From NCBI RefSeq assembly GCF_000336575.1, contig NZ_AOPO01000016.1, positions 1 through 64,000 of the forward strand: 64,000 nucleotides of DNA. Reading direction: 5' to 3'. Shown in pieces: positions 5,311-31,944 of the stretch; position 1 is the stretch's first letter, and every line of letters begins with the position of its first letter. The position numbers and the translations under genes are program-made. Below the pieces are notes generated by a model. That model was not told where the DNA came from. It did no database searches and saw only the letters and a list, made by a program, of their open reading frames with translations. The stretch is from Vreelandella titanicae BH1 (GTDB lineage Bacteria; Pseudomonadota; Gammaproteobacteria; Pseudomonadales; Halomonadaceae).

Positions 5311-5342
5311 AGCATGGATGACTTGTCTGAACGCAACCTGAA
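5311..5342 (-). promoter_or_regulatory. Putative response-regulator promoter upstream of DUF2933
   Basis: On the minus strand TTCAG-GTTGCG-TTCAG (5327-5342) is a direct repeat with 11-base phasing. Ten bases further is CATGCT (5311-5316), a poor -10 box. The layout equals that of five other sites in the window, but this -10 is the weakest of the six. The next gene downstream is DUF2933. Confidence 0.5.
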
Positions 5343-5398
5343 CAGCGACGGATAGAAATATGATCCTGATCAAGCGCCTCGCAAAAAGTAGGCGATAA

Positions 5399-6077
5399 TT
5401 ACCCAAGCGGTATCCATAGCCTCATTCCCATCATCATTAGGTTTTCGGTGAGCGATACAAAGCTTAATGGGTATTACTGTTGCCGACACAGGCGCACTTG
5501 AGCTCACGTTTATCGAGGTATATCGCTTTAAAGACAGAACCTGTCACACGGTGCCAACGAATAGCGCCAGTGGCGCAGCCAGCCAGATAAGCGTATCAGC
5601 CAGCATTAGTAGCTTCGGAAGTATCTAGGCGTGAAGGTAAACGTAACTGAAGGGGACTTGGCGCTGGGCGTGCAGGTCATAGTTGAGAAACATGGCGCTA
5701 AAGCTCGCTACGCCCTGCAGCTTTTGCAGACCCGGGGGTATGATCGCTGTGGCTACGGCATACTCTAGCACGCGTGCAGTGAATATTATGCACTGAACCT
5801 CCCAACTGGCAGAAAAATCGATGAGTAACGCAGTGGCAAAAATTGCCAGCACAGGGCGATAGGTGGTCGCATTAGGGTCTGAAACGCTAACTCCCAGGTG
5901 CTCATGAAGCTCTTCATAGCCGCCAATGCGTTCATAGCCCAGATATCCCTGGGAAATCGTATCGACATGTTCCTGCTCTGTAAACGCGTCAATCTCTTAC
6001 CGCGAAGTCAGCAGGTTTACGTTCACCTAAGGCCCATGTGCACGAGCAGGTCAACGATCTACAAGCCAAACGGACAT
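5399..6077 (-). pseudogene. Decayed glutaredoxin-MauE/DoxX fusion membrane protein
   Basis: Piecing frames together on the minus strand recovers a recognisable protein: DLLVHMGL, VNVNLLTSR, (stop), EIDAFTEQEHVDTISQGYLG, YERIGGYEELHEHLG, DPNATTYRPVLAIFATALL, FLNYDLHAQRQVPFSYVYLH, (stop), LMLADTLIWLAAPLALFVGT, (stop and shift), VFKAIYLDKRELKCACVGNS, (stop), SLTENLMMMGMRLW. Order and content match glutaredoxin fused to a MauE/DoxX redox membrane domain. At least four stops and two frameshifts make it dead. The probable original start is the ATG near 6077 with an AGGAGAG site. The 296 bases beyond it to 6373 are AT-rich and hold no gene I can see. Confidence 0.75.
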
Positions 6078-6373
6078 ATGTACTCTCCTGTTTGCAACCA
6101 TAAGCGCGAGCGCTGGAGTGGGTCGTTGTCACCGTTATGAACCTCTTAGTTGTTTATTAACACTATATTGCTTACCTAACATAATAATCTAACTCCCTTC
6201 CACAGCCTTCAGATCAAATATGTGGCGCGACGAAAACTTTATTGTGAAGTGAGCCAGTCGATCTTACTAAGCCTGAAGGCGCCTCAGTCGTTAGGTAATA
6301 AGTTTATTTTATTATGAAATTTGTTAACTTCCATGTCTCAACATAAACATTTGAGATTCGCTAAAGTGTATAT

Positions 6374-6880
6374 TTATTCGCTGACAATGCGAAGTTGGTT
6401 TTCTAAGTAAGGGCTAGCATTCGCCGGGAGCAGGTTTGGAAAGGGGTTCTCAACACTTTCGTCTGCTTGGTGACGCCTTTGCTCTTGTGTCCATAATGTC
6501 TTGAGATAATTCACCACATCTCGTATCTCGCTGGGAGCCAAAACTTCCTGGTACGCTGGCATCGTTAGCCTATCGGTTTTATTCCAAGGGTCGCGCCAAC
6601 CCTCGGCAATAATTCTATAGAGCATGGCATCAGAGTGTTTCCAGGTATGTCCCTCTGGTCCATGTGGTGGAGCCGGCAACTCCCCTAGAGCGTTTTGCTC
6701 TTCCCAGTTGGGCATGCCCTCGCCTTGTGCACCGTGGCAACTGGCACAGTATTGTCGGTAAACTCTTTTTCCGTCCTCTAACTGAGACGTATCGCTGGAA
6801 GAAGGGCGGTCCTCAGCCATGGCGTGTCCCACAACCATTAGCGTCAGCCATGAGGCAGAGAAAAAATAGCGCTTACGCAT
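6374..6880 (-). CDS. Class I cytochrome c, periplasmic
   Basis: 168 aa with a signal peptide (cleavage probably after GHAMA) and one haem c motif YCASCHG near residue 47. A probable distal Met ligand lies in RLTMPAYQEVL, followed by the closing helix IRDVVNYLKTLW, the standard mono-haem cytochrome c fold. It would act as a periplasmic electron carrier. It overlaps the upstream beta-propeller gene by 8 bases, so the two are translationally linked. The neighbouring CcdA and TlpA-like genes supply the reductant that cytochrome c assembly needs. Its redox partner is not evident. Confidence 0.87.
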   Translation of the reverse strand: MRKRYFFSASWLTLMVVGHAMAEDRPSSSDTSQLEDGKRVYRQYCASCHGAQGEGMPNWEEQNALGELPAPPHGPEGHTWKHSDAMLYRIIAEGWRDPWNKTDRLTMPAYQEVLAPSEIRDVVNYLKTLWTQEQRRHQADESVENPFPNLLPANASPYLENQLRIVSE

Positions 6881-7739
6881 CGGGATAAGTCCAAGATCGG
6901 CCTTCGTTTTTACTGTGCAACAGTTCCCCTTTTTGGTTTAAACCATAGAGCGTGCCTTTCGCCGAGAGTGTGAGCGCAACGAGTTCTGTGCCATCACCAG
7001 CTACTTGCTGCCACTCTTGACCACCATTATCACTACGCCATAGGCCCTGCTGCGTAGCTACATAGACTCGCTTTGGGTTGTCAAGGCTATAAGCCACATC
7101 ATAGACGCTGCCAGCATCAAGTGCTCCGGTCGGTCTCCATCCGCAAAAGCAGTCCATCGATAGACGCACCGCATCGACCGATACCGCGTAGAGCCAGCCG
7201 GTCTGCATGCTGCCTTCCATGTCAGAGTGGATGAGTCGGTTAACCTTCTGTGAAGGGCCGCTGTCCATTTTCTTCCAGGTGTCGCCAGCATCCTCGCTTT
7301 GGTAGATGCCGTTATCGGCAATCACCGCATAAAGTGTTTCGTTCTGGCGGCGATGTACGGTTAGCGCAGTTACCTCACGGCTAGGTAAGTTAGCGTTGAG
7401 CTCTTGCCAGGTTTCCCCATCATCGGTGCTACGCTGCACCCCAATTGAGGTGCCTGCAATATAGAGCGTTTGCGGGTCATTGTAGGGTACCGATACCGCT
7501 AGCAACTGGCCTTCAGTCACGTCTTCGGGCAAGGGAATCGCATTCCAAGCCATGCCTTCATCGGTACGCTGGAATAGCTGGTTGGCCTCAATCTTAAACA
7601 GTCGTTTGCCTGTTACGTCATAATGCAGAGAAAGCAACCCTTCTTCGGTTGCCAAGGCCGTGCTGGCGATGCCAAAGCTGACTGCTGACAAACCTGCCAG
7701 CAAGAAGACACGTAAAAAACGACTCACGATGTTGCGCAT
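6873..7739 (-). CDS. Secreted BNR/YCF48-like beta-propeller protein
   Basis: 288 aa with a signal peptide (cleavage near ASTALA). It contains repeated sialidase-type blades: RSTDDGETWQELNA, QSEDAGDTWKKMDS, RSDNGGQEWQQVAG and HSKNEGRSWTYPDA, the Asp-box/BNR pattern SxDxGxTW. Sialidase catalytic residues are not apparent, so an assembly or binding role like YCF48 or F510_1955-type proteins is more likely than glycosidase activity. It is directly upstream of, and overlaps, the cytochrome c gene, and follows a CcdA gene by 23 bases. The function is inferred only from fold and neighbours. Confidence 0.8.
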   Translation of the reverse strand: MRNIVSRFLRVFLLAGLSAVSFGIASTALATEEGLLSLHYDVTGKRLFKIEANQLFQRTDEGMAWNAIPLPEDVTEGQLLAVSVPYNDPQTLYIAGTSIGVQRSTDDGETWQELNANLPSREVTALTVHRRQNETLYAVIADNGIYQSEDAGDTWKKMDSGPSQKVNRLIHSDMEGSMQTGWLYAVSVDAVRLSMDCFCGWRPTGALDAGSVYDVAYSLDNPKRVYVATQQGLWRSDNGGQEWQQVAGDGTELVALTLSAKGTLYGLNQKGELLHSKNEGRSWTYPDA

Positions 7740-7762
7740 TTCAATATTTCCTTAAATAACGA

Positions 7763-8506: not shown

Positions 8507-8521
8507 TACCCTTTACCCATG

Positions 8522-8905: not shown

Positions 8906-8917
8906 GGTGCTACCTCA

Positions 8918-9472: not shown

Positions 9473-9480
9473 ACTATCCC

Positions 9481-9921: not shown

Positions 9922-10021
9922 ATATTGAGTGTCCGGTTAGTTAACAGGGCGGAAGGTCTCATTGACGCTACCCGGATAAGAAAAAGGTTGCTTGCGTACA
10001 AGCAACCCCATCCGAGTCGTT

Positions 10022-10258: not shown

Positions 10259-10349
10259 GACACTCTCCTTTGTGTGTGAATCACTCTGCCAAACGAGCTG
10301 GTGGTAGGACTTGATTACGGTTTCTACCTTGTGGCAGAGGTGCTTTTGT

Positions 10350-18048: not shown

Positions 18049-18456
18049 TCATTCAGTCTGCTCAGCGATAGCTTCAACAATCGGGCAGCCTTCCTGCATA
18101 GGCCCTTCGCCTGCACACTCACTCAATGTTTTCGATAATACGGCTTCAATCCGCGTGAGATGTTTGATCTGCTCTCGCACCTTGTGCAGCTTCTCGCTGG
18201 CGATGCGTTTAGCTTGCGCCCGGTCGCCATTAGCATCCTGAAGCATTAACAGCTCCCGAATCTCTTGTAGCGTGAAGCCCCACTGCTTGGCATGGACGAT
18301 AAACTGCAACCGATCCACAGCTTCCAGTGGGTAACGCCGATAGTTGGCATCGGTCCTCCTCGGAGGAGGCATAAGTCTCTCTTTTTCGTAGAATCGAATC
18401 GCCTGGCTAGCGACCCCGCTTCGTTCGGCAAGCTCGCCGATACTTAGTGTTTGCAT
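18049..18456 (-). CDS. MerR-family metal-responsive regulator
   Basis: 135 aa. HTH: LSIGELAERSGVASQAIRFY then RLMPPPRRTDANYRRY; long dimer helix; C-terminal metal loop CAGEGPMQEGCPIVEAIAE. The loop has two cysteines nine residues apart. CueR has seven residues and a DCPII end, so this is CueR-like in its CPI tail but longer; zinc/cadmium-type regulators are also possible. It is just upstream of the copper ATPase copA in the same orientation, and close to the peroxiredoxin and ccdA promoters (19196-19312), which it may control. Confidence 0.88.
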   Translation of the reverse strand: MQTLSIGELAERSGVASQAIRFYEKERLMPPPRRTDANYRRYPLEAVDRLQFIVHAKQWGFTLQEIRELLMLQDANGDRAQAKRIASEKLHKVREQIKHLTRIEAVLSKTLSECAGEGPMQEGCPIVEAIAEQTE

Positions 18457-18527
18457 AGCGTTACCTCACGACATTATTAATCCAAGCTTCTGGCAGCCTG
18501 ACTCAACGAATCTACCGGTCGGGGCTC

Positions 18528-19163: not shown

Positions 19164-19195
19164 GGAAATGTCCTCATGTCATTCATTGAGTAGCC

Positions 19196-19226
19196 ACCAT
19201 AACTTTGAAGTCAACTTTAAGGTCAA
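19196..19226 (-). promoter_or_regulatory. MerR-type promoter of the peroxiredoxin gene
   Basis: Minus strand: -35 TTGACC (19221-19226), 19-base spacer containing CCTTAAAG-TTGA-CTTCAAAG with the first arm, -10 TATGGT (19196-19201). The first half-site is identical to those at 10350-10380 and 19282-19312. Transcription would start about 30 bases before the peroxiredoxin ATG. Confidence 0.75.
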
Positions 19227-19281
19227 GCTTGATGTGTAATATTTGCAATTCGATAGGAGACAAATAATTTGTCAATAAAGG

Positions 19282-19312
19282 TTGACCTTAAAGCAGCTGT
19301 AAGCCTTAAAAT
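19282..19312 (+). promoter_or_regulatory. MerR-type promoter of the second ccdA
   Basis: Plus strand: -35 TTGACC (19282-19287), 19-base spacer, -10 TAAAAT (19307-19312). The first half-site CCTTAAAG equals that of the two sister promoters; the second half is degenerate. It is divergent from the peroxiredoxin promoter, 55 bases away. Confidence 0.7.
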
Positions 19313-19351
19313 TCTTACGGCGCTAAAATGGATATGATAGGAGGTAGCACC

Positions 19352-19396
19352 ATGGGATTGGTATCAATACCCTTGTTGGCCGTCTCCATAACTTAA
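19352..19396 (+). CDS. 14-codon leader peptide upstream of ccdA
   Basis: ATG at 19352 has the strongest Shine-Dalgarno of the region (ATAGGAGGTAGCACC) and encodes MGLVSIPLLAVSIT before a TAA. The ccdA frame starts 15 bases later at a TTG with no good Shine-Dalgarno. It could be a translational leader that delivers ribosomes to ccdA, or the remains of a lost ATG start caused by a frameshift. Confidence 0.4.
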   Translation: MGLVSIPLLAVSIT

Positions 19397-19410
19397 GTTG
19401 CGATAACACA

Positions 19411-20133
19411 TTGGAATCTCTCTCTTCCATCGGCTTGGTCGGCGCCTTTATCGGCGGATTGATCTCCTTCTTCTCGCCCTGCACGCTGCCCCTGTTACCG
19501 GCCTACCTGTCGGTGGTCACAGGCGGTAGTGCCGGTAAAGCCGACAGGCGGTTAGAGGCATTGACCCTCAGTGCCTTCTTCGTCTTCGGCTTCAGCATCG
19601 TGTTCATCCTACTCGGGCTCGGTGCCAGTAGTATCGGGCAACTGATGCGAGGGTATCGCCAAGAATTCAACTGGGTTGCCGGCGCGGCGGTGATCGTGCT
19701 GGGCCTCTTTATGACCGGCGTGTTCCGATTGCCGCTATTCCAGCGTACCTTTCAGTTCACACCCAACGTCCAGGGTGGCTCCCCGCTGTCGGCGACAGTG
19801 TTCGGGGTCTCTTTTGCCATCGGTTGGACCCCCTGTATCGGCCCTATACTGGGCGCCATTTTGATGGCCACGTCCAATGCTGCTAGTGCCCAGGCTGGAA
19901 TGATTTATCTCAGTGCCTACTCGGCAGGACTGGCGCTACCTTTTCTTGCCAGCACTTTACTGATTAACCGATTCGCTCTGCATCGGCAAAGCCTGGGAAG
20001 GTGGAGTGCCTATGCTCGCCCCGTGGCGGGCACGATTGTGATCCTGATGGGCATCGCCATCGTCTCGGGTACCATGACACGGCTTTCCAGTCTCATGGTC
20101 GACCTTTTCCCCTCCCTGGCGACCCTGGGGTAG
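19411..20133 (+). CDS. ccdA: CcdA-family thiol-disulfide transmembrane transporter, second copy
   Basis: 240 aa, about six membrane helices, with FFSPCTLPLLPAYLSV in helix 1 and GWTPCIGPILGAIL in helix 4. It should carry electrons from cytosolic thioredoxin to periplasmic partners. It resembles the copy at 7763-8506 but has TLP instead of VLP after the first Cys. The start is a TTG at 19411, chosen because the N-terminus then matches the family length; no ATG is in frame. Its promoter is MerR-type. Its stop codon lies about 10 bases from the edge of a copB relic, hinting at an insertion or deletion join. Confidence 0.87.
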   Translation: MESLSSIGLVGAFIGGLISFFSPCTLPLLPAYLSVVTGGSAGKADRRLEALTLSAFFVFGFSIVFILLGLGASSIGQLMRGYRQEFNWVAGAAVIVLGLFMTGVFRLPLFQRTFQFTPNVQGGSPLSATVFGVSFAIGWTPCIGPILGAILMATSNAASAQAGMIYLSAYSAGLALPFLASTLLINRFALHRQSLGRWSAYARPVAGTIVILMGIAIVSGTMTRLSSLMVDLFPSLATLG

Positions 20134-20355: not shown

Positions 20356-20387
20356 ATTATAGTAGGCCTTCCTGAATCCTAGCTGAA
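20356..20387 (-). promoter_or_regulatory. Orphan response-regulator promoter facing the copB relic
   Basis: Minus strand TTCAG-CTAGGA-TTCAG (20372-20387), ten bases, then a perfect TATAAT (20356-20361). The architecture equals that of the copper genes' promoters. It points left to the copB relic and the 3' end of ccdA, not to the csp gene. The rest of 20185-20554 is AT-rich with no gene seen. Confidence 0.65.
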
Positions 20388-21493: not shown

Positions 21494-21525
21494 ATAATAA
21501 CCTTAGAGTATGAATTGAAGCTGAA
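21494..21525 (-). promoter_or_regulatory. Response-regulator promoter of the 138-aa gene
   Basis: Minus strand TTCAG-CTTCAA-TTCAT (21510-21525), ten bases, then TATTAT (21494-21499). One mismatch in the second repeat. About 33 bases separate the -10 box from the ATG at 21461. Confidence 0.65.
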
Positions 21526-21591: not shown

Positions 21592-22356
21592 TTAAAACAT
21601 TAACCTGACACCTGCCACCACGCCGGTATCTTCGGTATTATTCCCACCAGCACGAGATAGGTCAGCGGTATCGCCATACTCTTTTACCCAGTAAGCGCCC
21701 ACGTAAGGCGCAAAGCGTCTGGTCACTTCGTAGCCCAGGCGCATGCCGACACGCACTGAGTTAAGGCCCTCACCCACACCAAACTCCTCAACTTCGCTGA
21801 CAGCTACGGCAATTTCGGTGCGCGGCTGTAGGTAGAGCCGCTGTGTCAGGCGCAGATCGTACTCGCCCTCAAAACTAGCGGCCACCTCGCCATCTTCACT
21901 CACTTGCATAGCAACGTCGGTTTCAATGCCGTAGGGCATCACACCTTGTAGGCCGACAACCCCATAGGTGCGTTCGGCGTGATCATCGGAGAACACACCG
22001 CCTTGGTAACCGATACCCCCCTGTAACTCCCAAAAATCAGCCACTAGGCGACTATAGAGTAGTTCCAGGGATTCAAACTCAGCATCTTCACCGTCGCCTT
22101 GGACATTCTCGCCCTCTGACTTCAGGTAAACACGGTTGATATCACCGCCATACCAACCTTGAAAGTCCCACACGACGGCCTCATCGCCGTTATCGGGTAC
22201 GCTATATTCAAGACGATCAAAGAGCGCCATACCCATATTGTGTTCCATCGTGGGCGCTGGCCAATCCTTCGGCGCGTCGTAACCGTCTTCCGCATGGGCA
22301 GCGGTGGTCATGACAAACGCTAAGCTAATGCCAGTAAAATAAAGCTTAGTTTTCAT
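21592..22356 (-). CDS. copB: Outer-membrane copper resistance protein CopB
   Basis: 254 aa with a signal peptide (TTAAHA). The mature protein has the CopB/PcoB signature: DWPAPTMEHNMGMALFDRLEY, WDFQGWYGGDINRVYLKSEG, and a C-terminal run of beta strands ending in VRLMF, typical of an outer-membrane barrel. The Met-rich N-terminal extension of longer CopB proteins is reduced. CopB works with the multicopper oxidase CopA in the periplasm and outer membrane. It follows copA by 9 bases, with a TAAGGAGG Shine-Dalgarno that abuts the copA stop. Confidence 0.93.
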   Translation of the reverse strand: MKTKLYFTGISLAFVMTTAAHAEDGYDAPKDWPAPTMEHNMGMALFDRLEYSVPDNGDEAVVWDFQGWYGGDINRVYLKSEGENVQGDGEDAEFESLELLYSRLVADFWELQGGIGYQGGVFSDDHAERTYGVVGLQGVMPYGIETDVAMQVSEDGEVAASFEGEYDLRLTQRLYLQPRTEIAVAVSEVEEFGVGEGLNSVRVGMRLGYEVTRRFAPYVGAYWVKEYGDTADLSRAGGNNTEDTGVVAGVRLMF

Positions 22357-22365
22357 ACTGCCTCC

Positions 22366-24219
22366 TTAAGAAACCTGAACAACGCGGAACATTCCGGCAT
22401 CCATGTGATAAAGCAGGTGGCAATGGAACGCCCAACTGCCTTCAGCATCTGCCGTAATCAGCGCCGAAACCCGCTCGCCGGGCTTAACGTTCAGGGTGTG
22501 TTTGCGCGGAATTAGCTCGCCCTGACCGTTTTCCAGCTCCATCCACATACCGTGGAGGTGGATAGGATGCTCCATCATGGTGTCGTTGATCAGGATTAGG
22601 CGCAGCCGCTCATCTTTCACAAAATGGATTGGGCCGGTCACTTCGCTAAACTTCTTGCCGTCGAACGACCACATGTAACGTTCCATGTTGCCGGTCAGGT
22701 GCAGCTCAAGCTCACGGCCTGGTTCGCGGCGGTCAGGCCATGGCGTGAAGGCTTTAAGATCGCGGTAGACGAGTACTCGACGTTCGTTGGGGTCGATGCC
22801 TATGCCCGCCTGGTCGTAGCGAGAGCCGGGCTGGGCTTCACCGGCAATGAGAATGCCGTTTTCGCCGACTTTCGCCTGCTCGCCCGACATGCCGCCCATA
22901 TTAGAATGATCCATGCCCTCCATGTTGGAGTGATCCATCCCCTCCATATTAGAGTGATCCATGCCTTCCATACCAGCATCGTCACCGCTCATTCCCGGCA
23001 TATTGGAGTGATCCATACCTTCCATATTCGACATGCCTGAATGATCCATGCCTTCCATGTCACCCATGCCATGAGCGCCCATGGCTTCCATGCCGCGGTC
23101 GGCAATTTGGCGGCGCTTGGGAATCTCCGCCTGCATGCCTTCACGCGGGGCTAGCGTGGCGCGAGCGTAGCCACTCCGATCCATGGCTTCGGCGAAGATG
23201 GTATAGGCTCGATCATCTTCTGGTGAAACAAGCACATCGTACGTTTCCGCCACGCCAATACGGAACTCATCAACAGGCACGGGTTGCACTGGCTGGCCAT
23301 CGGCAGCAACGATGGTCATCTTCAAACCAGGTATACGTACATCAAAGTATGACATCGCCGACCCGTTAATCACGCGTAGTCGTACCCGCTCACCAGCCTT
23401 GAACAGCGCATTCCAGTTTTCTTGGGGGGAGTGACCGTTAAGCAGGTAGGTATAAGTACTGCCGGTCACATCGGCAATATCCCGAGAACTCATGCGCATT
23501 TTGGCCCACATACCGCGCATCTCGGCGGTTTGTGAGAAACCCTTTTCGCGAACATCGGCGAAAAAATCAGCAATCGTGCGCTCTTGGAAGTTGTAATAGC
23601 CTTCCATGGTTTTCAGATTACGAAATACCGACATGGGGTCTTCAAAGGTCCAGTCGGTGAGCAGTAGCACATGCTCACGGTCATAGCGGATGGGTTCGCG
23701 CTCGGCGGCGTCAATTATCAACGGCCCGGCGTGGCCGAGCTGTTCCTGCAAGCCGGAGTGGCTGTGGTACCAGTAGGTACCGTTCTGGCGGACAGGAAAA
23801 CGGTAGGTGAAGGTTTCACCAGGTGCTATGCCTGCAAAACTGACCCCAGGCACACCGTCCATCTCCGGTGGCAAGATGAGGCCATGCCAATGGATCGACG
23901 TGGACTCATCCAGCAGGTTGGTAACACGCAGTACGGCGTCTTGACCTTCTTTCAGACGAATCAGTGGGCCAGGGCTAGTACCGTTAATGCTAATAGGGTG
24001 GGCTTCTTGTCCGTCAATCGGAATGGATTCACGGCGGATAGCCAGTGATATCTCGGGCCCTTCTTCGACGCCCTGTGCATAGACATTCGTACGGCCCCAG
24101 GGGTTTGCCCAGGCGGGAGTTAGCCCCATTGCGGCAGCGGAACCTAACCCTAAGGCAGCACCGCCTTTTAGGACTTGCCGGCGAGAAAGCGGGTGAGAAA
24201 TAATGCTTGAGCGTGCCAT
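22366..24219 (-). CDS. copA: Periplasmic multicopper oxidase CopA/PcoA
   Basis: 617 aa. A twin-arginine signal (SRRQVLKGGAALGLGSAA) exports the folded enzyme. Three cupredoxin domains carry the copper ligands SIHWHGLILP, YWYHSHSG, HPIHLHGMWM and HCHLLYHMDAGMFRV. It oxidises Cu(I) to less toxic Cu(II). Between about residues 380 and 445 lies a Met/His-rich insert of repeated MDHSNMxGM units, which probably binds copper. It has a response-regulator promoter (24250-24281) and forms an operon with copB. The name collides with the ATPases also called copA. Confidence 0.95.
   Translation of the reverse strand: MARSSIISHPLSRRQVLKGGAALGLGSAAAMGLTPAWANPWGRTNVYAQGVEEGPEISLAIRRESIPIDGQEAHPISINGTSPGPLIRLKEGQDAVLRVTNLLDESTSIHWHGLILPPEMDGVPGVSFAGIAPGETFTYRFPVRQNGTYWYHSHSGLQEQLGHAGPLIIDAAEREPIRYDREHVLLLTDWTFEDPMSVFRNLKTMEGYYNFQERTIADFFADVREKGFSQTAEMRGMWAKMRMSSRDIADVTGSTYTYLLNGHSPQENWNALFKAGERVRLRVINGSAMSYFDVRIPGLKMTIVAADGQPVQPVPVDEFRIGVAETYDVLVSPEDDRAYTIFAEAMDRSGYARATLAPREGMQAEIPKRRQIADRGMEAMGAHGMGDMEGMDHSGMSNMEGMDHSNMPGMSGDDAGMEGMDHSNMEGMDHSNMEGMDHSNMGGMSGEQAKVGENGILIAGEAQPGSRYDQAGIGIDPNERRVLVYRDLKAFTPWPDRREPGRELELHLTGNMERYMWSFDGKKFSEVTGPIHFVKDERLRLILINDTMMEHPIHLHGMWMELENGQGELIPRKHTLNVKPGERVSALITADAEGSWAFHCHLLYHMDAGMFRVVQVS
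22889..23074 (-). repeat. In-frame Met/His repeat tract within the multicopper oxidase
   Basis: Tandem 24-base units encoding variants of GMDHSNME, with at least three near-identical copies at about 22900-22975 and looser ones to 23074. The units differ in synonymous and some non-synonymous positions. Such tracts can change copy number by slippage or recombination. Confidence 0.8.
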
Positions 24220-24249: not shown

Positions 24250-24281
24250 ATCTTGATGGAAGAACCTGAAACAAAGCTGAA
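24250..24281 (-). promoter_or_regulatory. Response-regulator promoter of copAB
   Basis: Minus strand TTCAG-CTTTGT-TTCAG (24266-24281), ten bases, then CAAGAT (24250-24255). It lies between the sensor kinase stop codon and the multicopper oxidase start. Confidence 0.7.
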
Positions 24282-24287: not shown

Positions 24288-25640
24288 TTAATTAGCTACT
24301 TCACCCGCTAGAGGCAGGATAATCGTAACGCGCAGTCCACCCAGTGGACTGCGCTCAAAATACGAGTGCCCTGAGTAGCGGGCAATTAGCTGCGCAAGAA
24401 TCGACAGGCCTAAGCCGTAGCCGGGACGGCGTTCATCCAGTCGTGTGCCACGCTCTCCCAAGCGCGAAAGATCCTCTTCTGCAACGCCGAGGCCGTCATC
24501 ATCAATGGTGAGCGTGAGTGTGGTTGCGGAGACGGCAATATCGCAATTAACGCACCTATTCGACCATTTGCCAGCGTTATCGAGCACGATGCCTAATATT
24601 TCAGAAAAGTCGTGAGCCTCAATAGGCACTTGGTCTTTCTCGCCTGCCGAGTGGGCGAGGTTGAACATACGCTCAGGATAGAGGCTACGGAACATCTCAA
24701 TCAGCCGTAAGCTATCACGAGTAACGTTGGCCATTCGTCCCGCATTAGGGCCTGCAATACGTGAACGACGCAGCTCCGCTTCCAACTGGGCGTTAATGTC
24801 TTCAATACGGCTGAGTAGTTTATGGCGCCGGTTGTCATCAATAGGCCGGTTGCCACGCAGTACTTGAGTAACGGCTGCCAGCGGTGTTTTTAATGCGTGT
24901 GATAGGTTGGCGACCGATTCTCGCGAGCGCTTCAGACGAAGATCAATGTCGTCCATGAACCAGTTCAACTGGTCGACTAATTCATCTAGCTCCGAAGGGG
25001 CTACTAATGACAAGCGATCACGTTTGCCTGATCGCAATGCTTCAAGTTGTTGGCGCAGTTGCCAGAGTGGTATGAGTCCACGGTTAACCGCTAGCATGTT
25101 GAGTATGATGAGCATCCCTAAAAGCACGGCGGCGATCCCACCGACCCACCAGTGTAAAGTTGCAAGCCCTGATTCTACTTGGGAAAAATCCTCGCCCACC
25201 AATAGCACACCCTGCGTGCCCTGCCACTCAAAATGGCGGCGATAGACGAGCATGTGCTGTGTTCCGCGATTCACATCTATTAGGGCATCGCCGCTCTCAT
25301 CTAGCAACGGAGCCAGCTGTTGCTGCCATTGCGGGTCAGAAGCGCTGACCGAGCCATTGAAACGGAGTACGTAGAGATGATGAAAGACTTGATAGCCTTG
25401 GCTAACCGAGTCGAGCGCAGTCGGTACAGCCGTTTGGTCTTGCTCTAGCTGCGCGACCGCGTGGTTTGCTTCACGTTGTAAGCGTTCACCTAAAAAATCC
25501 CTTGCCAGGCTCTGTAAAAAGATCCCGTGCAATAGCCACGTGGTGACCACCACCAGTAGCGCGACGCCGCCTAACCATGCGAGTAGCCGAATGCGTAAAC
25601 TGCGTCTATCAATGTGAAGCAAAGAAATACCCCTGACCAC
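24288..25640 (-). CDS. Sensor histidine kinase, CopS-like
   Basis: 450 aa inner-membrane kinase. Two membrane helices (about 17-35 and 163-183) flank a periplasmic sensor loop, followed by HAMP, the H-box SHALKTPLAAVTQVL with the phosphoacceptor His, and an ATPase domain with DNAGKWSN, DDDGLGV and GYGLGLSIL. It phosphorylates the response regulator encoded just upstream, overlapping by 32 bases. Start is GTG at 25640; a TTG at 25622 with an AGGGGT site is possible. PhoQ-like spacing of the H-box region makes copper sensing an inference from context. Confidence 0.9.
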   Translation of the reverse strand: MVRGISLLHIDRRSLRIRLLAWLGGVALLVVVTTWLLHGIFLQSLARDFLGERLQREANHAVAQLEQDQTAVPTALDSVSQGYQVFHHLYVLRFNGSVSASDPQWQQQLAPLLDESGDALIDVNRGTQHMLVYRRHFEWQGTQGVLLVGEDFSQVESGLATLHWWVGGIAAVLLGMLIILNMLAVNRGLIPLWQLRQQLEALRSGKRDRLSLVAPSELDELVDQLNWFMDDIDLRLKRSRESVANLSHALKTPLAAVTQVLRGNRPIDDNRRHKLLSRIEDINAQLEAELRRSRIAGPNAGRMANVTRDSLRLIEMFRSLYPERMFNLAHSAGEKDQVPIEAHDFSEILGIVLDNAGKWSNRCVNCDIAVSATTLTLTIDDDGLGVAEEDLSRLGERGTRLDERRPGYGLGLSILAQLIARYSGHSYFERSPLGGLRVTIILPLAGEVAN

Positions 25641-26274
25641 GTCGCGTTTGAATGACTGATTTACCGAGATAACGGCGCAGACGAGCGATGTAGACTTCCA
25701 CCAAGTTAGGTGCGGCAGCGTCCTGATCCAAGGCGTAGAGCTGCTCTAGTAGCTGATCTTTCGAGTGAATACGGTCTGGATGAAGCATTAAGTAGCGCAG
25801 TAATCGAAACTCCGTTGCTGTTAGCGAACGCCACGTTTCTCCTTCTAAGCACACGCGTTGACCCGCCTCATCCAACGAGACACCGTTAAGCGTAATCACA
25901 TGAGATAACTGACCAGACTGCCTACGCAACAAGGCCTTCAGGCGAGCCATAAGTTCGGCTTCGTGGAAAGGCTTGGTGAGATAGTCATCGGCTCCGGTTT
26001 CAAGTCCGATAACTTTATCTTCCCAGGTATCGCGCGCCGTCAAAATCAAAATAGGCGTACTGCGCTTCTGCTTGCGCCAATGAGCGAGAAGATCTAACCC
26101 CGACCCATCGGGCAAACCGACATCTAAAATAGCCAGCTCATAATCCTCGGTTGCCATCAGCGACTTGGCCGCTTTCAATGAAGCGGCCAAATCAACCAGG
26201 TAACCGTTGTCCTTGAGACTCTCTGCCAAGCTTTCTGCTAACAAATCATCATCTTCGAGTAGCAACAGTTTCAT
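25609..26274 (-). CDS. OmpR/PhoP-family response regulator, CopR-like
   Basis: 221 aa. The receiver has acidic EDDD at 7-10, phospho-acceptor Asp51 (AILDVGLPDGSG), Thr and Lys in LILTARD and DDYLTKPF. The C-terminal winged helix (SLTATEFRLLRYLML, VEVYIARLRRYLG) binds direct repeats as a dimer. The best candidate target is TTCAG-N6-TTCAG with 11-base spacing, seen in front of the island's copper genes. It lies 14 bases downstream of the cupredoxin gene, so the sensor pair is probably autoregulated through the promoter at 26826-26857. Confidence 0.92.
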   Translation of the reverse strand: MKLLLLEDDDLLAESLAESLKDNGYLVDLAASLKAAKSLMATEDYELAILDVGLPDGSGLDLLAHWRKQKRSTPILILTARDTWEDKVIGLETGADDYLTKPFHEAELMARLKALLRRQSGQLSHVITLNGVSLDEAGQRVCLEGETWRSLTATEFRLLRYLMLHPDRIHSKDQLLEQLYALDQDAAAPNLVEVYIARLRRYLGKSVIQTRRGQGYFFASH

Positions 26275-26288: not shown

Positions 26289-26789
26289 TTAGAGAGAAAA
26301 ATTACCGTACATGCCGGATTCATAATGACCAGGAATGTTACAGGCATACTCTAGCTCGTTAACATTGTCAGGGACACTCCATAATAAAGTCCCGGTTTCA
26401 CCAGGCGCAATGGTGACACCTGCCATGTCCATGCTGGCCATATCGTGACCGCCGCCGTGTGACATATTCGACATATCGTGGCCTCCGCCGTTGGCCATGT
26501 TTAGCATCATTTGACGATGTTCTTCTTGGGCTTCTTTGCTACCAATCACAAACTCATGTTCTAAATTGCCGGTGTTGGTGATTTCAAATTTAACAATTTC
26601 ACCCGCCGCCATTTCTAGCGTTTCAGGGTCGAACCACATATCGCCAGCATCAAGAGTGATCGTGCGGTCAACGTCAGCGTCGGTCAGGCCACTGTCACCG
26701 CCGCCATGGCCGGGCGCAGCCCATGCCGCGCTTGTTACTAGGCTTAGTGAAAGAGCAAGCAAAGGAGTTGTTAAAATGGTGTTGCGCAT
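26289..26789 (-). CDS. Periplasmic cupredoxin (plastocyanin/azurin-like)
   Basis: About 166 aa with a signal peptide (TSAAWAAPGHGGG). The cupredoxin ligands are visible: His in NLEHEFVIGS and the Cys-His-Met loop YACNIPGHYESGMYG, forming a type 1 copper site. A Met/His-rich insert (GGGHDMSNMSHGGGHDMASM) provides extra copper binding. The ATG at 26789 has a GAGGT site 8 bases upstream; the in-frame ATG at 26795 is too close to it. First gene of an operon with the response regulator and kinase. The 279 bases between this gene and copD hold no recognised gene. Confidence 0.9.
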   Translation of the reverse strand: MRNTILTTPLLALSLSLVTSAAWAAPGHGGGDSGLTDADVDRTITLDAGDMWFDPETLEMAAGEIVKFEITNTGNLEHEFVIGSKEAQEEHRQMMLNMANGGGHDMSNMSHGGGHDMASMDMAGVTIAPGETGTLLWSVPDNVNELEYACNIPGHYESGMYGNFSL

Positions 26790-26825
26790 GGTCATTTACC
26801 TCAAAAGGGTTGTTGTCACTGCTTA

Positions 26826-26857
26826 TTTATACGGTGTTAACCTGAAACGAGCCTGAA
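26826..26857 (-). promoter_or_regulatory. Response-regulator promoter of the cupredoxin-copRS operon
   Basis: Minus strand TTCAG-GCTCGT-TTCAG (26842-26857), ten bases, then TATAAA (26826-26831). It is one of the best matches and implies autoregulation of the two-component system. Confidence 0.75.
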
Positions 26858-27074
26858 CCTAAAGTAATAATATGACCTGCTGCACAAAAGCATTTCTAAC
26901 ATGATGATTGATCCTGCCCCCACTGATTAGTGTCAACGCTGCAGCAATGACTTTTCGTCTTTTTGGTGCAATGCCTATGGCAGCATCCGCCTAAACCTCA
27001 GTGTACGGCCCACAAGAAGGCGACCGTTAATGTTCGATCTCTGGATCGGCTCTACAAGGTGGTTGCCCTGTTGG

Positions 27075-27980
27075 TCACCCATTCGGTGATGTCACCCTTG
27101 TCAGCACCGCCGTAATCAGCAGGATAACCACGACCAGCACCACCTCCAGCGCAATACTGCGCTGCAAACGTCGTGGGGCTGTTGCGTCGCCGCTCTCAAA
27201 GGCAGGTACAAGCCGCCACTTGTTCGCGGCAGCAAATAACAGCAGCACCGCGACAATCAATACTTTGCCGATCAAGAACTGTCCATATGCCGTGGTGAGC
27301 AGGGGTGTGAGACCGCCTGTTAGCAGCGTGGCCAAAGTGACGCCCGCCAGTACCAACACGCCAACTCCGCCCATGGCGAGTTGCCCGAAACGGGTCAGAA
27401 TGCGGGCGGTATTGCCGTGGTTGTAATGTTGCCCCACTAAGTGGAACAGCGGCCACAGCGAGGCTACCCAGAACGCCGCCGCCATCAAGTGAATGATCAG
27501 CAAGCCAGCCAGAACGAGGCGTGGGGTGTTCACCGTATGTCCCACCTGCACGAACGCCAGCATCACCAGTAACACGCCCACTAGGCTCAAGCTATTGGCT
27601 GTTTTTGAGAGTGCTAAGTTATTGAGCTGAATCGCCTGGACCAACAGCAAGCCAGTTACCACCAGTATCAGCCGGGTCCCGGACGCACCCTCGAACACGA
27701 TCCCGAGTAGCATTGGGTTGGTTGCAGCCGCTATATTGCCGCCCCCAAGGTAACCAGCTTCTAAAGGCCACTGGAACAGAATCAGGATAATCCCGGCCCA
27801 GACAGCAAGGACACCCATGCGGGCGACGTGCCTCCGGTCATGTTCAGGGAGTTGGGGAAACGCTAGACGAAACAACACGGCTCCCGTCGCGACTAGGGCA
27901 CTGAGGTAAACCCCGGCCGCCACGAGAATCATCGCGACGGTCCAGACGTCGAGGCTATTTACGGAGAACCACCAAGCCAC
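27075..27980 (-). CDS. copD: Copper resistance protein CopD, inner membrane
   Basis: 301 aa, about eight membrane helices, with the CopD family core: LAGLLIIHLMAAAFWVASLWPL and RFGQLAMGGVGVLVLAGV, ending ITAVLTRVTSPNG. CopD works with CopC in moving copper across the inner membrane. It follows copC with 3 bases between stop and start, so the two form one unit. Its original promoter now appears to be separated from it by the ISL3 transposon. Confidence 0.93.
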   Translation of the reverse strand: MAWWFSVNSLDVWTVAMILVAAGVYLSALVATGAVLFRLAFPQLPEHDRRHVARMGVLAVWAGIILILFQWPLEAGYLGGGNIAAATNPMLLGIVFEGASGTRLILVVTGLLLVQAIQLNNLALSKTANSLSLVGVLLVMLAFVQVGHTVNTPRLVLAGLLIIHLMAAAFWVASLWPLFHLVGQHYNHGNTARILTRFGQLAMGGVGVLVLAGVTLATLLTGGLTPLLTTAYGQFLIGKVLIVAVLLLFAAANKWRLVPAFESGDATAPRRLQRSIALEVVLVVVILLITAVLTRVTSPNG

Positions 27981-27983
27981 GGG

Positions 27984-28355
27984 TCAGGGCTCGACCGAGA
28001 AGTTAAAACCGTCGGACATCATGTGTCCGTCATCCGATAGGCCGCGCCAGTGCACCTGGTAGCCCCCAGCCGAAAGAATTTCACCGGGCTTTACGACGTA
28101 GCGTTCGACCTGTTCACTGCCTGGCTGACCATCAAGAGGAACGGGGCCGTCTGGGCCTGTCACTTCAAACTGGGTGATGCGCATCATGCCACCAAACTCG
28201 ATGCCAATCTCTGCTGGGGAATCCTGAATGGTGACGCCATCCTTAGGCGAAGTGCTTGCGCCCCCTTCATGGGCCAGCACTGGGATTGCTAGCGACAGCA
28301 ACAGCGTTGCTAAGGTAGCGTGAATGATAGGGAGCGAACTCGTCTTTTTTTGCAT
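27984..28355 (-). CDS. copC: Periplasmic copper chaperone CopC
   Basis: 123 aa. The signal peptide ends at PVLAHEGG, so the mature chain starts with the His of the CopC Cu(II) site. The remaining beta-barrel features are GVTIQDSPAEIGIEFGGMM, KPGEILSAGGYQVHWRGL and DGHMMSDGFNFSV. The Met-rich Cu(I) loop of pseudomonad CopC is lacking, so it probably binds Cu(II) only. The ISL3 transposon begins 20 bases upstream of its start codon. Confidence 0.92.
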   Translation of the reverse strand: MQKKTSSLPIIHATLATLLLSLAIPVLAHEGGASTSPKDGVTIQDSPAEIGIEFGGMMRITQFEVTGPDGPVPLDGQPGSEQVERYVVKPGEILSAGGYQVHWRGLSDDGHMMSDGFNFSVEP

Positions 28356-28433
28356 ACCGTATCCTTATATATTTTGGGTATACGGATTTAATGGTTGATG
28401 GGGCACCTTCACCCCATCAATCTGATACCACCC

Positions 28434-29723
28434 TCAGATGGTTGATAGATCGACTCCGTAGTTGAGTTCCTCTGCGAAGTCCGGCAGTCCGTAACCGATG
28501 GTTTTCTTGTAGAAAGGAGAGACCTTCGCAGTCGGTGCCTTCTTCTTGTGCTTCGTGGTGTAGAGCATTCGTGCCCGCATCACCTCGAAGGAGTAACCGC
28601 GCCCTTCACGGTTCTTGTCCTTGGCCAGTCGGTTGATGGACTCCGTGTAAGCGTTGGTGACGGGCATGTCCGTCTCGAAGTAGGTCATGGTCTCTTCGCG
28701 CCAGTTTCCCACTGCCCTGACCAGATCGCTCCAGACTTCCTTTTGGCCCTTCGGGATGGTGGCTATCCACTCGTCCAGGGCGGCTTCTGCCTGGAGCCGT
28801 GTGGTGGCGTCCCAGATGCCGTAGAAGCGCTCCTTGTGCTCGTAGGCGGCCAGCAGTTGCGGGAACGCGCCTGTCCAGGTCTCCATGATGAGGCGCTCCC
28901 GGTCTGAGACTTCGTGAGCGCGTTTCAGCAGGATTTTCCGGTCTCCCTTGAGAGTCCGGCTCTGGGACGGTTTCAGCTCCTTTCTGAGGCCCTTGCGCAC
29001 TCTCTCTAGGGCATCGTTGGCCATGCGCACCACATGGAACTTATCGACCACGATACGGGCCTGGGGCAGCACAGCCTTGACCGCTGCCCGGTAGGGGTTC
29101 CACATGTCCATGCTGACGATCTCGACCTTCTGCCGGTCTTTCAGCTTCATCAGGTAGTTGGTCACCACGTCCTGGCGGCGGGTGGCCAGCAGGTCGAGCA
29201 GGGTTCGCTCCTCAATGTTGGTCAGAATGCAGCGGTAGCGCTTGTTCAGGTATAGCTCGTCAATGCCCAGGATGCGGGGCGTCTCGAAGCGGTGCCAGCG
29301 CCCCAGGAACTCGGCGCGGGCGTTGAAGATGTCGCGCACCGTCTTCTCGTCCAGGCCGGTCTGTGCCGCCACAAAGGTGTAGGGGTGGTTGAAGGATTCC
29401 TTCTCCACGTACTCATGCAGCCGCAGTGTCATACGGAATCCGTCCACCATCTCCGGTAGCTGGGGCCTGAATGTTGTCTTGCAGGCCCGGCAGGTGTATC
29501 GGCGGCGGACCACCCAGAGAGTGACCCGCTTGCCGTGGATGGGCAGATCACGATAGGGAACGTCACGCTTGCCGAACCGTACGAACTCACCCTGCACGCC
29601 GCATTCCTCGCAGGCGATGGGATCGGGCACGTCCACCTGGAAGTGCATTTCGTCGTCGGTTGATTTGCAGCCCAGTACTTGGTATTGCGGCAGGTGAAGG
29701 ATGTTGTCGGGAAGTTCGGTCAT
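28434..29723 (-). CDS. ISL3-family transposase
   Basis: 429 aa. An N-terminal zinc-finger pair (CEECGVQGEF, YTCRACKTTFRPQLPEM) is followed by a helix-turn-helix and the DDE catalytic domain: GIDELYLNKRYRCIL (first Asp), VSMDMWNPYRAAV then VVDKFHVVR (second Asp region) and NAYTESINRLAKDKNREGRG (Glu). These are the diagnostic ISL3 motifs. Length is normal and no frame break is seen, so it may be active. It lies inside the 28376-31747 transposon, 21 bases after lspA. Confidence 0.95.
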   Translation of the reverse strand: MTELPDNILHLPQYQVLGCKSTDDEMHFQVDVPDPIACEECGVQGEFVRFGKRDVPYRDLPIHGKRVTLWVVRRRYTCRACKTTFRPQLPEMVDGFRMTLRLHEYVEKESFNHPYTFVAAQTGLDEKTVRDIFNARAEFLGRWHRFETPRILGIDELYLNKRYRCILTNIEERTLLDLLATRRQDVVTNYLMKLKDRQKVEIVSMDMWNPYRAAVKAVLPQARIVVDKFHVVRMANDALERVRKGLRKELKPSQSRTLKGDRKILLKRAHEVSDRERLIMETWTGAFPQLLAAYEHKERFYGIWDATTRLQAEAALDEWIATIPKGQKEVWSDLVRAVGNWREETMTYFETDMPVTNAYTESINRLAKDKNREGRGYSFEVMRARMLYTTKHKKKAPTAKVSPFYKKTIGYGLPDFAEELNYGVDLSTI

Positions 29724-29744
29724 GGTGTTGTATAGGCGTAGGTG

Positions 29745-30257
29745 TCAGTCAGATCCATCCGGCTCGGCATTGGTGTTTGCTTTTTTACCCAACAAGCTGC
29801 TGGAAACGAAAAGTAAGGCACCGAGGACAATTGCAATATCAGCCAGGTTGAAGGCCGGCCAATGCCAGTCTCGCCAATAGAAATCAAAGGAATCCACAAC
29901 ATAGCCGCGAAAGACCCGGTCAATCAGGTTGCCCATGGCGCCACCGAGGATAAGACTGTAAGCGATGGCTTCTCCTTTATGACGATTTTCAAGGATCAGC
30001 TTGATCAGAAAAATCGAGACCACTACCGCGATTCCGATAAAAAAGTAGCGCTGCCAGCCTCCACCATTCGCAAAAAGACTGAATGCGGCACCGGTGTTCC
30101 ATAGGTGCACCCAGTTAAAGAACGGGGTCACCGAAACATACTCGCCATAGGCCATTGATTGCTGCACCAGCCACTTTACAGCCTGATCAGACGCTGCCAG
30201 CAGGCCCGATATGGACAATAGGGCATACGGCGAGAGCTTTTTGCCAATAATGAGCAT
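29745..30257 (-). CDS. lspA: Signal peptidase II (lipoprotein signal peptidase), transposon copy
   Basis: 170 aa, four membrane helices. Catalytic aspartates are in GAMGNLIDRVFRGYVVDSF and WPAFNLADIAIVLG. It cleaves the signal peptide of diacylated prolipoproteins. LspA copies next to lead or cadmium regulators and transporters are known from pbr-type loci (PbrC). Here it follows the CDF transporter by 3 bases. A second island copy is at 43889-44392, so this one is not the housekeeping enzyme. Confidence 0.95.
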   Translation of the reverse strand: MLIIGKKLSPYALLSISGLLAASDQAVKWLVQQSMAYGEYVSVTPFFNWVHLWNTGAAFSLFANGGGWQRYFFIGIAVVVSIFLIKLILENRHKGEAIAYSLILGGAMGNLIDRVFRGYVVDSFDFYWRDWHWPAFNLADIAIVLGALLFVSSSLLGKKANTNAEPDGSD

Positions 30258-30260
30258 TAT

Positions 30261-31157
30261 TTAACCTTTCAACGCCAAAATGCGTCTGGCACCGTTAAGT
30301 ACAATGCCCCCCGCGATGGTGCCGATAATCAGATCCGGATAATTGGAACCGGTCCACGCGACCAGGGCGCCGGCGGTGATGACCCCCAGGTTGATCACCA
30401 CGTCGTTGGCCGAGAATATCCAGCTTGCCTTCATGTGCGCCCCGCCTTCCCGATGTTTGGATATGAGCAGCAGACAACTGGTATTGGCAATCAATGCGAC
30501 GAATGCGATAGCCATCATCACCAGCGATTCAGGCTCACTACCGAATACAAAGCGTCTCACCACCTCTACGAGCACGCCCACAGCCAAGATCAGTTGCAGT
30601 ACACCAGCAAGATGCGCGGCACGTACCTGCATTTTCACGCTATGTCCAACCGCATAAAGGGCAAGCCCGTACACCGCCGCATCGGCAAAATTGTCCAGGG
30701 ATTCTCCAATCAGGCCGGTGGACTGGGCGATCAGACCGGCAGTCATTTCCACCACGAACAGAAGTGCATTGATGCCGAGCAACCAGCGCAGGGTCCCGGA
30801 TTCTTGCTTAGCAGAAGCTGCCGAAAACTCGGCGGCCTTGATGGTCTCCGGATTTGCAGCGACGGTTTCCTGAAGCGAGGCGCCTAGCCCCAAGGTCTTC
30901 AGTTTCGAGGTGACGGGCTCGACCTCGCCGTCATGCACGACCTTCAGCCGGCGGTTCGACAAGTCGAAGGACAGCGCCCGAATCTCCTCAAAGCCGTTCA
31001 GGGCTAGGCGAATCATTCGTTCTTCTGATGGACAGTCCATCTTCGGCACGGCATAAACACTGACCCATCTCCCTGGCGCCTCGGAGGAGGCCTGTATATC
31101 GGTATCCGCTGCGGACGTTGCATCACCGCCACAGGCGCCACCACAGGATTTGCTCAT
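30261..31157 (-). CDS. CDF-type heavy-metal cation transporter with N-terminal metal-binding region
   Basis: 298 aa. Starts MSKSCGGACGGDATSA, then an HMA-like segment (VYAVPKMDCPSEERMIRLAL) and five to six membrane helices with DNFADAAVYGLALY and SANDVVINLGVI. These Asp-rich helices match the CDF/CzcD superfamily core for divalent metal export (Zn, Cd, Pb). The ATG at 31157 is used because the MerR promoter leaves no room for the upstream TTG. It forms an operon with lspA and is controlled by the divergent cadR. Confidence 0.88.
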   Translation of the reverse strand: MSKSCGGACGGDATSAADTDIQASSEAPGRWVSVYAVPKMDCPSEERMIRLALNGFEEIRALSFDLSNRRLKVVHDGEVEPVTSKLKTLGLGASLQETVAANPETIKAAEFSAASAKQESGTLRWLLGINALLFVVEMTAGLIAQSTGLIGESLDNFADAAVYGLALYAVGHSVKMQVRAAHLAGVLQLILAVGVLVEVVRRFVFGSEPESLVMMAIAFVALIANTSCLLLISKHREGGAHMKASWIFSANDVVINLGVITAGALVAWTGSNYPDLIIGTIAGGIVLNGARRILALKG

Positions 31158-31190
31158 GATACGACTCCACTTGAACAATGTTGTGGTACC

Positions 31191-31221
31191 ATTTAAAACT
31201 ATAAAGCTACTATAAGGTCAA
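31191..31221 (-). promoter_or_regulatory. CadR/PbrR-type promoter
   Basis: Minus strand: -35 TTGACC (31216-31221), 19-base spacer with dyad CTTATAGTAGCTTTATAG, -10 TTAAAT (31191-31196). It matches known CadR/PbrR operators and drives the CDF-lspA transcript. Confidence 0.82.
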
Positions 31222-31252
31222 TAGAGTAAAGAATCCGTTGGGGAGGAGGCTG

Positions 31253-31660
31253 ATGCGCATTGGTCAGTTGGCGCAGTTGGTAGGGGTCGAAACACAGACG
31301 ATCCGCTTCTATGAACAGCAGGGCTTGTTGCCGCCGCCTGATCGGCAGGACAACGGTTACCGTGTCTATACCGAGAAGCATGGTGAGGGGCTGGCCTTCA
31401 TCCGTCGCTGCAGAATCCTGGGCCTGTCACTGGCTGAGATTCACGAACTACAGAGCTATCAGGACGACCCTCATCAGCCTTGTACCGCCGTCAACGCCTT
31501 GCTCGATGATCACATCTCTCATGTGCGGTCGCAGATAACCGCTCTGCAAGCGCTTGAGAAACAACTCGTTTCACTGAGAGCGAGTTGCAACGATGACCGG
31601 GAAGTTGAGGCGTGTGGGGTTCTTGCTGGAATTAGCGAAGGAAACATGCACCAGCAGTAG
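31253..31660 (+). CDS. cadR: MerR-family Cd/Pb-responsive regulator (CadR/PbrR-like)
   Basis: 135 aa. HTH MRIGQLAQLVGVETQTIRFY then GLLPPPDRQDNGYRVY; dimer helix; conserved HQPCTAVNALLDDHI (Cys of the Cd/Pb site) and a late cysteine pair region SLRASCNDDREVEACGVLAG. This Cys pattern (Cys77-type, Cys112, Cys119) is that of CadR/PbrR, sensing Cd(II), Pb(II) and Zn(II). ATG at 31253 has a GGGGAGGAGG site. It is divergent from the CDF-lspA operon and lies in the ISL3 transposon. Confidence 0.9.
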   Translation: MRIGQLAQLVGVETQTIRFYEQQGLLPPPDRQDNGYRVYTEKHGEGLAFIRRCRILGLSLAEIHELQSYQDDPHQPCTAVNALLDDHISHVRSQITALQALEKQLVSLRASCNDDREVEACGVLAGISEGNMHQQ

Positions 31661-31794
31661 GTGAAGCATCAACCAGATAATCCGATGAGATGCCGGTCTG
31701 TCTCACTCTCATGCAAAGGTAAGATCAACCATTTAATCCGCTTACCCTATATTTTTTTGGGTTGAATGGATGTTGTTACTTCATCGCGGAGGCG

Positions 31795-31910
31795 TTAATA
31801 ATAATTCGGTTGAGCCTTCAGGAATTCTTTGGCTTCAGGGGTTTTCGCTTTTTGGGCGGCGAGGTATTTGAGCAGCATTTGGACGCGCTTTTCGTCATGG
31901 AAGTGGGTAG
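31795..31910 (-). pseudogene. Fragment of a homologue of the 152-aa copper-operon protein
   Basis: Minus-strand translation gives HDEKRVQMLLKYLAAQKAK then TPEAKEFLKAQPNYY and a stop. The first part aligns with [19 protein letters not shown] of the 2582-3040 protein. The N-terminal half and proper start are missing, and the frame runs into the promoter at 31913. It is a recombined remnant. Confidence 0.55.
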
Positions 31911-31912
31911 CT

Positions 31913-31944
31913 GTTATAGCGTGCCAACCTGAAACAGAGCTGAA
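31913..31944 (-). promoter_or_regulatory. Response-regulator promoter, probably the original copCD promoter
   Basis: Minus strand TTCAG-CTCTGT-TTCAG (31929-31944), ten bases, then TATAAC (31913-31918). It points to the 152-aa homologue fragment and then the transposon. Without the 3,372-bp insertion and one target copy it would lie about 170 bases upstream of copC. Confidence 0.7.

Follow-up and report, generated by a model that had tools for sequence, protein, structure and literature searches.

Which protein reads the short direct repeats that stand in front of the copper genes of Vreelandella titanicae BH1, and do these repeats form a code specific to copper? The window analyzed here, the whole stretch of 64,000 nucleotides at positions 1 to 64,000 of contig NZ_AOPO01000016.1 (assembly GCF_000336575.1), carries a copper-resistance island with six candidate promoters in which two TTCAG-type pentamers are separated by six bases and followed, after exactly ten bases, by a −10 hexamer. 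Sequence comparisons indicate that the TTCAG-N6-TTCAG element very probably serves as a tandem operator for the response regulator that the island itself encodes (25609–26274, minus strand), which would drive copI together with the regulator and kinase genes, copAB, and other genes.

Six tandem repeats and their −10 hexamers

All six sites were found on the minus strand where the preliminary description had placed them, with six bases between the repeats and ten before the named hexamer. The site at 26826–26857 (TTCAGGCTCGTTTCAG-N10-TATAAA) precedes copI and the genes of the regulator and kinase, the site at 24250–24281 (TTCAGCTTTGTTTCAG-N10-CAAGAT) precedes copAB, and the site at 21494–21525 (TTCAGCTTCAATTCAT-N10-TATTAT) precedes the gene of a 138-residue protein. 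The remaining three are located at 20356–20387 (TTCAGCTAGGATTCAG-N10-TATAAT, with a perfect −10), at 31913–31944 (copC-type, TTCAGCTCTGTTTCAG-N10-TATAAC), and at 5311–5342, which has the weak hexamer CATGCT at N10 and lies upstream of a run of genes from DUF2933 to a P-ATPase.

The exact pattern TTCAK-N6-TTCAK (IUPAC code) occurs seven times in the window, the seventh copy being on the plus strand at a gene overlap (2581–2596). The whole genome (5.34 Mb in 48 contigs) contains 61 exact copies, versus 11 of the pattern read backward. From the density of the remaining 54 genomic matches, 0.66 copies would be expected in the window, and the probability of finding seven or more is about 6e-6; the whole-genome scan suggested in the preliminary description thus places the density in the window well above that of the rest of the genome. 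Only eight genomic copies are followed by NANNNT at N10: four in this island, one in a copper island on contig C11, one on contig C23, and two elsewhere. Four further island sites (C16:26826 and C16:31913 in the window, C11:86494, and C11:88250) escape this pattern by the final T, their hexamers being TATAAA or TATAAC. With the strict hexamer TANNNT at distances from N4 to N18, two of twelve matches in the genome are at N10, both of them inside the island. Random occurrence was rejected as an explanation on the basis of the spacing counts, the −10 counts, and the clustering in the window.

The arrangement recurs in other Halomonadaceae. A search with the regulator returned 47 loci, of which 44 (L075–L118) were used and three remote ones (L119–L121) were left out. 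TTCAG-N6-TTCAK is present 120 times in the 44 loci, versus zero to nine copies for any of the 20 alternative spacings between 0 and 20. TTCAG is the commonest pentamer repeated at N6 (109 pairs) and occurs as such in every one of the loci. By a count made by hand, 37 of the 44 have a site of the 26826 type approximately 0.6 kb upstream of the regulator. The copAB site recurs with variant −10 hexamers, mostly CANNAT, the 21494 site is also found in L076, L079, L081, and L112, and the 20356 site in L079, L169, and L170. Another recurrent operator, TTCAGCTTTAATTCAG (L079 10948, L076 8022, and L075 13284), was not found in the window.

To describe the −10 region, the sites were collapsed to 51 whose likeness over 55 bases is below 80%. 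The search itself specified the repeats, which therefore count for nothing here, whereas the −10 lay outside the search. At exactly N10, the first base of the hexamer is C or T in 50 sites and the second is A in 45, and the penultimate base is A in 36 and the final base T in 28. Other informative columns, each seen in 38 of the 51 sites, are a T as the third base of the spacer and a TT placed one base past the second repeat. The copI-type promoters mostly have TATAAA, TATAAC, or TACAAC, the copA-type CANNAT, and the 5311-type CATGCT or CACACT. Because A is usual at the second position, and T at the last position of the copA- and 5311-types, the verdict of a poor −10 at the sixth site has to be softened: CATGCT is weak, as had been stated, but it recurs at N10 in L075 and L076, and CACACT does so on C23 and in L118. 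The arrangement with the −10 at N10 is shared by the non-homologous genes copI, copA, copC, DUF2933, and that of the 138-residue protein.

The island regulator as the probable reader of the repeats

The distribution of the operator follows that of the regulator. In 151 genomes of the family, the strict site TTCAG-N6-TTCAG-N10-YANRAH was found 111 times in 58 genomes, and the reversed control four times. The strict site is present in 48 of the 78 regulator-positive genomes versus 10 of the 73 regulator-negative ones (odds ratio 10; p 9e-10, which is indicative only because the genomes are not independent). Of the 111 sites, 95 are within 10 kb of a regulator match, 83 of them within 3 kb, and 56 of the 92 regulator matches have a strict site within 10 kb. 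This co-occurrence and proximity bear out the earlier proposal that the operator class is conserved and tied to the regulator at 25609–26274. A class-wide set of 369 gammaproteobacterial genomes, 77 of which contain a regulator match at E ≤ 1e-55, gave 131 copies of TTCAG-N6-TTCAG-N10-TANNNT in 90 genomes and 19 of the reversed control (summed by hand); the site is present in 50 of the 77 genomes with a regulator match and in 40 of the 292 without one (odds ratio 11.7, p 3e-18).

Based on these observations, a mechanism of activation can be proposed. The membrane kinase would sense copper stress and phosphorylate the regulator, which may then bind the two direct repeats, 11 bp or one helical turn apart, as a head-to-tail dimer. 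The comparison with OmpR/PhoP-type tandem sites made in the preliminary description holds in this respect, as the two direct half-sites are about 11 bp apart and at a fixed position before the −10. For a −10 at N10, the two half-sites would be located approximately from −38 to −34 and from −27 to −23, over and just below the −35 region. Therefore, the dimer may replace the missing −35 element and recruit the sigma-70 polymerase. The predicted targets are the regulator's own operon with copI and the kinase gene, copAB, the gene of the 138-residue protein, the run from DUF2933 to the P-ATPase, and copCD where no transposon intervenes.

It is improbable that a different regulator of the cell, PmrA-like or of the CusR/CopR type, binds the sites and that the island regulator is a mere neighbor. 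The PmrA model finds 40 matches in the genome, a large part of them full-length (the two island regulators included), and cross-regulation between copper two-component systems of Pseudomonas is described in the available part of PMC11195947. However, the sites track the island regulator across the 151 genomes. Six of seven other PmrA-like regulators sampled from the same genome do not have the tyrosine of the recognition helix, and L177, the exception, is a 34% relative; even with one mismatch allowed, none of the seven sampled stretches contains a repeat of TTCAG or TTAAG followed by TANNNT at N10. The CopR consensus, too, lies off the promoters, except for one match with two mismatches at 26853. 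Still less likely, the two TTCAG elements could constitute the promoter of an alternative sigma factor instead of an activator operator. The fixed distance to the −10 would suit such a factor, as would the lack of a −35 consensus on inspection of the sites, but identical repeats 11 bp apart suit a dimer, the −10 is sigma-70-like, and the co-occurrence is with a response regulator. That the repeats are functionless remnants of a duplicated copper cassette is hardly credible: many loci are closely related and the genome carries two copies of the island, but the −10 is kept while flanks and spacer bases vary (the repeats being fixed by the search in that comparison), unrelated genes share the site, and the same site stands beside approximately 50%-identical regulators elsewhere.

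Several observations qualify this picture. When one mismatch is allowed, the 21 matches in the window are ordinary, since seven of 100 shuffled sequences reach that number. Of the 61 exact genomic matches, 23 are TTCAG-N6-TTCAG, and the other spacings give about 18 apiece (388 in total for the 21). The bare repeat was not used alone because its abundance barely exceeds that of other spacings; what is distinctive is the clustering and the fixed −10 distance rather than the repeat as such. The reversed pattern is itself rarer in the genome (80 versus 388 forward, at any spacing from 0 to 20), so the forward-to-reversed ratios overstate the effect, and the class-wide ratio of about 7 is only somewhat above the own-genome background of about 5. 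CAAGAT and CATGCT are poor −10 boxes. The 44 loci are mutually related and were collected via the regulator, and the −10 class of the family-wide search was picked after these loci had been viewed. Thirty of the 78 regulator-positive genomes of the family have no strict site, and some of the fetched site-negative genomes contain one-mismatch repeats or other −10 hexamers. In the class-wide set, just 39 of the 131 sites are within 5 kb of a listed regulator match, and 32 of 79 regulator matches have a site; the remainder may therefore be other targets, sites of other regulators, or chance. The sensing of copper by the kinase is deduced solely from the neighboring genes.

Island genes and displaced sites

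The regulator, kinase, and cop genes are encoded on the minus strand, as is the P-ATPase gene. The proposed operator reader is an OmpR-type, PmrA/CarR-like response regulator, and its likely partner is a sensor histidine kinase (24288–25640), whose best NCBIfam model is PhoQ (131 bits, below the cut-off of 497). They are accompanied by a CopI-like cupredoxin (26289–26795; best model below its cut-off), the multicopper oxidase copA (22366–24219; TIGR01480, 807.7 bits), copB (21592–22356; PF05275), copC (27984–28355; PF04234), and a copD-like gene (27075–27980; 103.9 bits, below the cut-off of 195). The run after the 5311 operator comprises DUF2933, a gene of 122 codons, an amino-acid-type permease, a gene of 152 codons and, as the last gene, that of a heavy-metal P-ATPase of the copper type, which has YHS and HMBD domains (277–2589). 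The 138-residue protein matched no NCBIfam or Pfam model. The island also contains further copper-type genes. A second, related island on C11 is 77.9% identical over 4827 bp of the part from copAB to the regulator and has three conserved sites, and C23 carries a 5311-type site with an identical 16-mer beside a 72%-identical stretch. Regulator orthologs with 100% identity are present in Vreelandella and Halomonas records. At 18049–19400, a MerR-type regulator lies beside a peroxiredoxin and a CopA-type ATPase, and long-spacer MerR-like promoters were noticed by eye at approximately 19210–19340; this region is possibly a second metal circuit within the island.

All six sites had been described as preceding copper genes, which fails for two of them. 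The 31913 operator is separated from copCD by a complete-looking ISL3-type transposon of 3372 bp (28376–31747), which sits between the operator and copC, whereas in L079 a site of this type is followed by copC. The transposon encodes a MerR of the CadR/PbrR type, a CDF-like transporter scoring below its model cut-off, lspA, and a transposase, and is bounded by 24-bp inverted ends matching at 21 of 24 positions and by an 8-bp target duplication, AAAATATA. Its gene set is reminiscent of ISPpu12. The 20356 site has no intact gene adjoining: downstream are a leader of about 200 nucleotides, a short open reading frame, and a convergent DsbD-like gene, an arrangement also present in L079, L169, and L170. 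The predicted transcript would enter the DsbD-like gene (19411–20133, plus strand) antisense. The divergent gene upstream of the site is Csp1-like, below its model cut-off.

A possible wider branch and its described relatives

The comparisons do not support a code specific to copper. The same operator accompanies many regulators of approximately 50% identity across Gammaproteobacteria, and in the cases examined the genes behind it encode cytochrome b561 or PepSY proteins. In 26 loci from outside the family, TTCAG-N6-TTCAG occurs 15 times, in nine loci, and other spacings zero to three times each, so that N6 dominates here as in the 44 family loci; twelve of the 15 sites have TANNNT at exactly N10. 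Seven downstream open reading frames, chosen by look, were scanned: four encode cytochrome b561, two encode PepSY proteins, and one, from family locus L162, gives a weak match to cupredoxins. This suggests that the operator remained constant while the controlled genes differ, redox functions elsewhere and copper here.

Six of 45 plasmid records were opened. A Hydrocarboniclastica marina plasmid carries copAB, a cupredoxin, a window-type regulator, and two TTCAG repeats, of which one is followed by CATCTT at N10 and the second lacks a −10 at that distance. In Candidatus Thiodictyon, a site stands upstream of a TolC-RND cluster, Cupriavidus metallidurans CH34 has the repeat with no −10 at N10, a Marinobacter plasmid contains no operator site, and two Halomonas plasmids contain several each. 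On a Halomonas plasmid (L235 18422), TTCAGTTTGCATTCAG-N10-TACACT lies directly before an annotated NADH-quinone oxidoreductase subunit A gene.

Regulators of the TTCAG type mostly have E-V-Y-[IV]-x-R-L-R in the recognition helix; the helix is EVYIARLRR in the window regulator, EVHVNHLRR in CarR, and EVHIHNLRE in PmrA. A YxxR helix is present at 77 loci, of which nine belong to the family. The TTCAG site with TANNNT at N10 is present exactly in 29 of the 77, exactly or with one mismatch in 46, and absent from 31, and each of ten other pentamers was found in none of them. TTAAG was found exactly in one of these loci and exactly or with one mismatch in 12, nine of which are TTAAG/TTCAG hybrids also counted among the 46. 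Some loci run against a helix rule: L192 (exact TTAAG repeat), L205, and L220 (TTAAG-TTAAT) combine YxxR with TTAAG-type repeats, L202 (YxxH) and L178 (YxxK) carry exact TTCAG sites, and among the only six EVH-type regulators sampled, none has an exact TTCAG or TTAAG site and one has a hybrid. Therefore, the arginine is not essential, and TTMAG is likely to be tolerated. In the tree, the window regulator falls within a supported group (21 rows; 99/94, the bootstrap having not settled) that comprises Halomonadaceae and the Hydrocarboniclastica plasmid, which most other gammaproteobacterial rows adjoin. The EVY label requires three changes on the tree, the EVH rows L165, L166, and L193 being among outside EVY rows, with remote L177 apart. 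The EVH-to-EVY contrast is a possible specificity switch, with exceptions. We tentatively propose, as a reading somewhat less likely to be right than wrong, that a large undescribed branch of PmrA/CarR-type regulators may read TTCAG-N6-TTCAG through this switch, usually with arginine three residues on, with A changed to C at the third base of the half-site. Control of cytochrome b561 and PepSY genes would be its commoner use outside Halomonadaceae, and one clade (Halomonadaceae and the Hydrocarboniclastica plasmid) would have redeployed the unchanged operator for copper resistance, partly on plasmids.

The window regulator consists of a receiver and a winged-helix domain and aligns over its full length to the models and structures of PmrA and PhoB. 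Its best-scoring NCBIfam model is that of PmrA (NF007928; 206.1 bits, below the cut-off of 330), and PmrA/BasR is also its best full-length solved relative. PmrA/BasR binds tandem half-sites of the TTAA type. The score against the CopR/CusR model TIGR01387 is 148.7 bits, below the curated cut-off of 279.2. The likeness to CopR/CusR is in the neighboring copABCD genes and the two-component control. The available parts of two articles give the operator of such copper systems as TGACA-N4-TGTCA (PMC12428095) or CTGACA-N5-GTAAT (PMC11195947). As had been stated earlier, the island site differs from the CusR/CopR box: TGACA-N4-TGTCA is nowhere exact in the window and is absent from the six sites even when one or two mismatches are allowed, and CTGACA-N5-GTAAT has a single two-mismatch match there, at 26853, overlapping the copI site. 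The CopR/CusR consensus was rejected as the promoter code, since it has many matches with one or two mismatches in the window and only that at 26853 at the six sites. DsbRS of P. aeruginosa, described in part of PMC10141476 as a copper-sensing two-component system outside CopRS, was compared by description only; it controls dsb genes, and the island system copper genes.

Searches for TTCAG-N6-TTCAG under several spellings gave no match in the literature covered, which excludes most subscription journals, and the entries listed for TTCAG with copper and response regulator, for PmrA with copper, or for the direct repeat with cytochrome b561 included none of relevance. The accessible part of PMC9045368 has TTCAG solely in the −35 element of a ribosomal gene, that of PMC12442407 has no match for TTC, and the main text of PMC8041468 mentions neither TTCAG nor PA2479.

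The closest described site is that of BqsR (CarR) of Pseudomonas aeruginosa, which responds to Fe(II) and has the operator TTAAG-N6-TTAAG according to the available part of PMC4682146. The same source describes two direct pentamers, a 6-bp spacer, a downstream pentamer overlapping the −35 region, and an activator, as proposed here, and CarR is the best match to the DNA-binding domain among solved structures. The difference is in the third base of the half-site, A in BqsR/CarR and C in the island, where the half-sites are TTCAG and one TTCAT. In the 44 loci, TTAAG-N6-TTAAG occurs twice versus 109 times for TTCAG; L111 and L089 have one such repeat each. What is new here is the predicted TTCAG variant of the known BqsR/CarR-like tandem operator. 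It offers a readable copper regulon for salt-loving bacteria and some plasmids, under a regulator below the cut-off of the standard CopR model, and the one-base contrast between TTAAG and TTCAG alongside the helix contrast makes the DNA-recognition rules of a large class of response regulators testable. As judged from sequence, the window regulator resembles BqsR and PmrA in its manner of working and serves copper genes, yet by the model tests belongs to neither the CopR nor the PmrA family.

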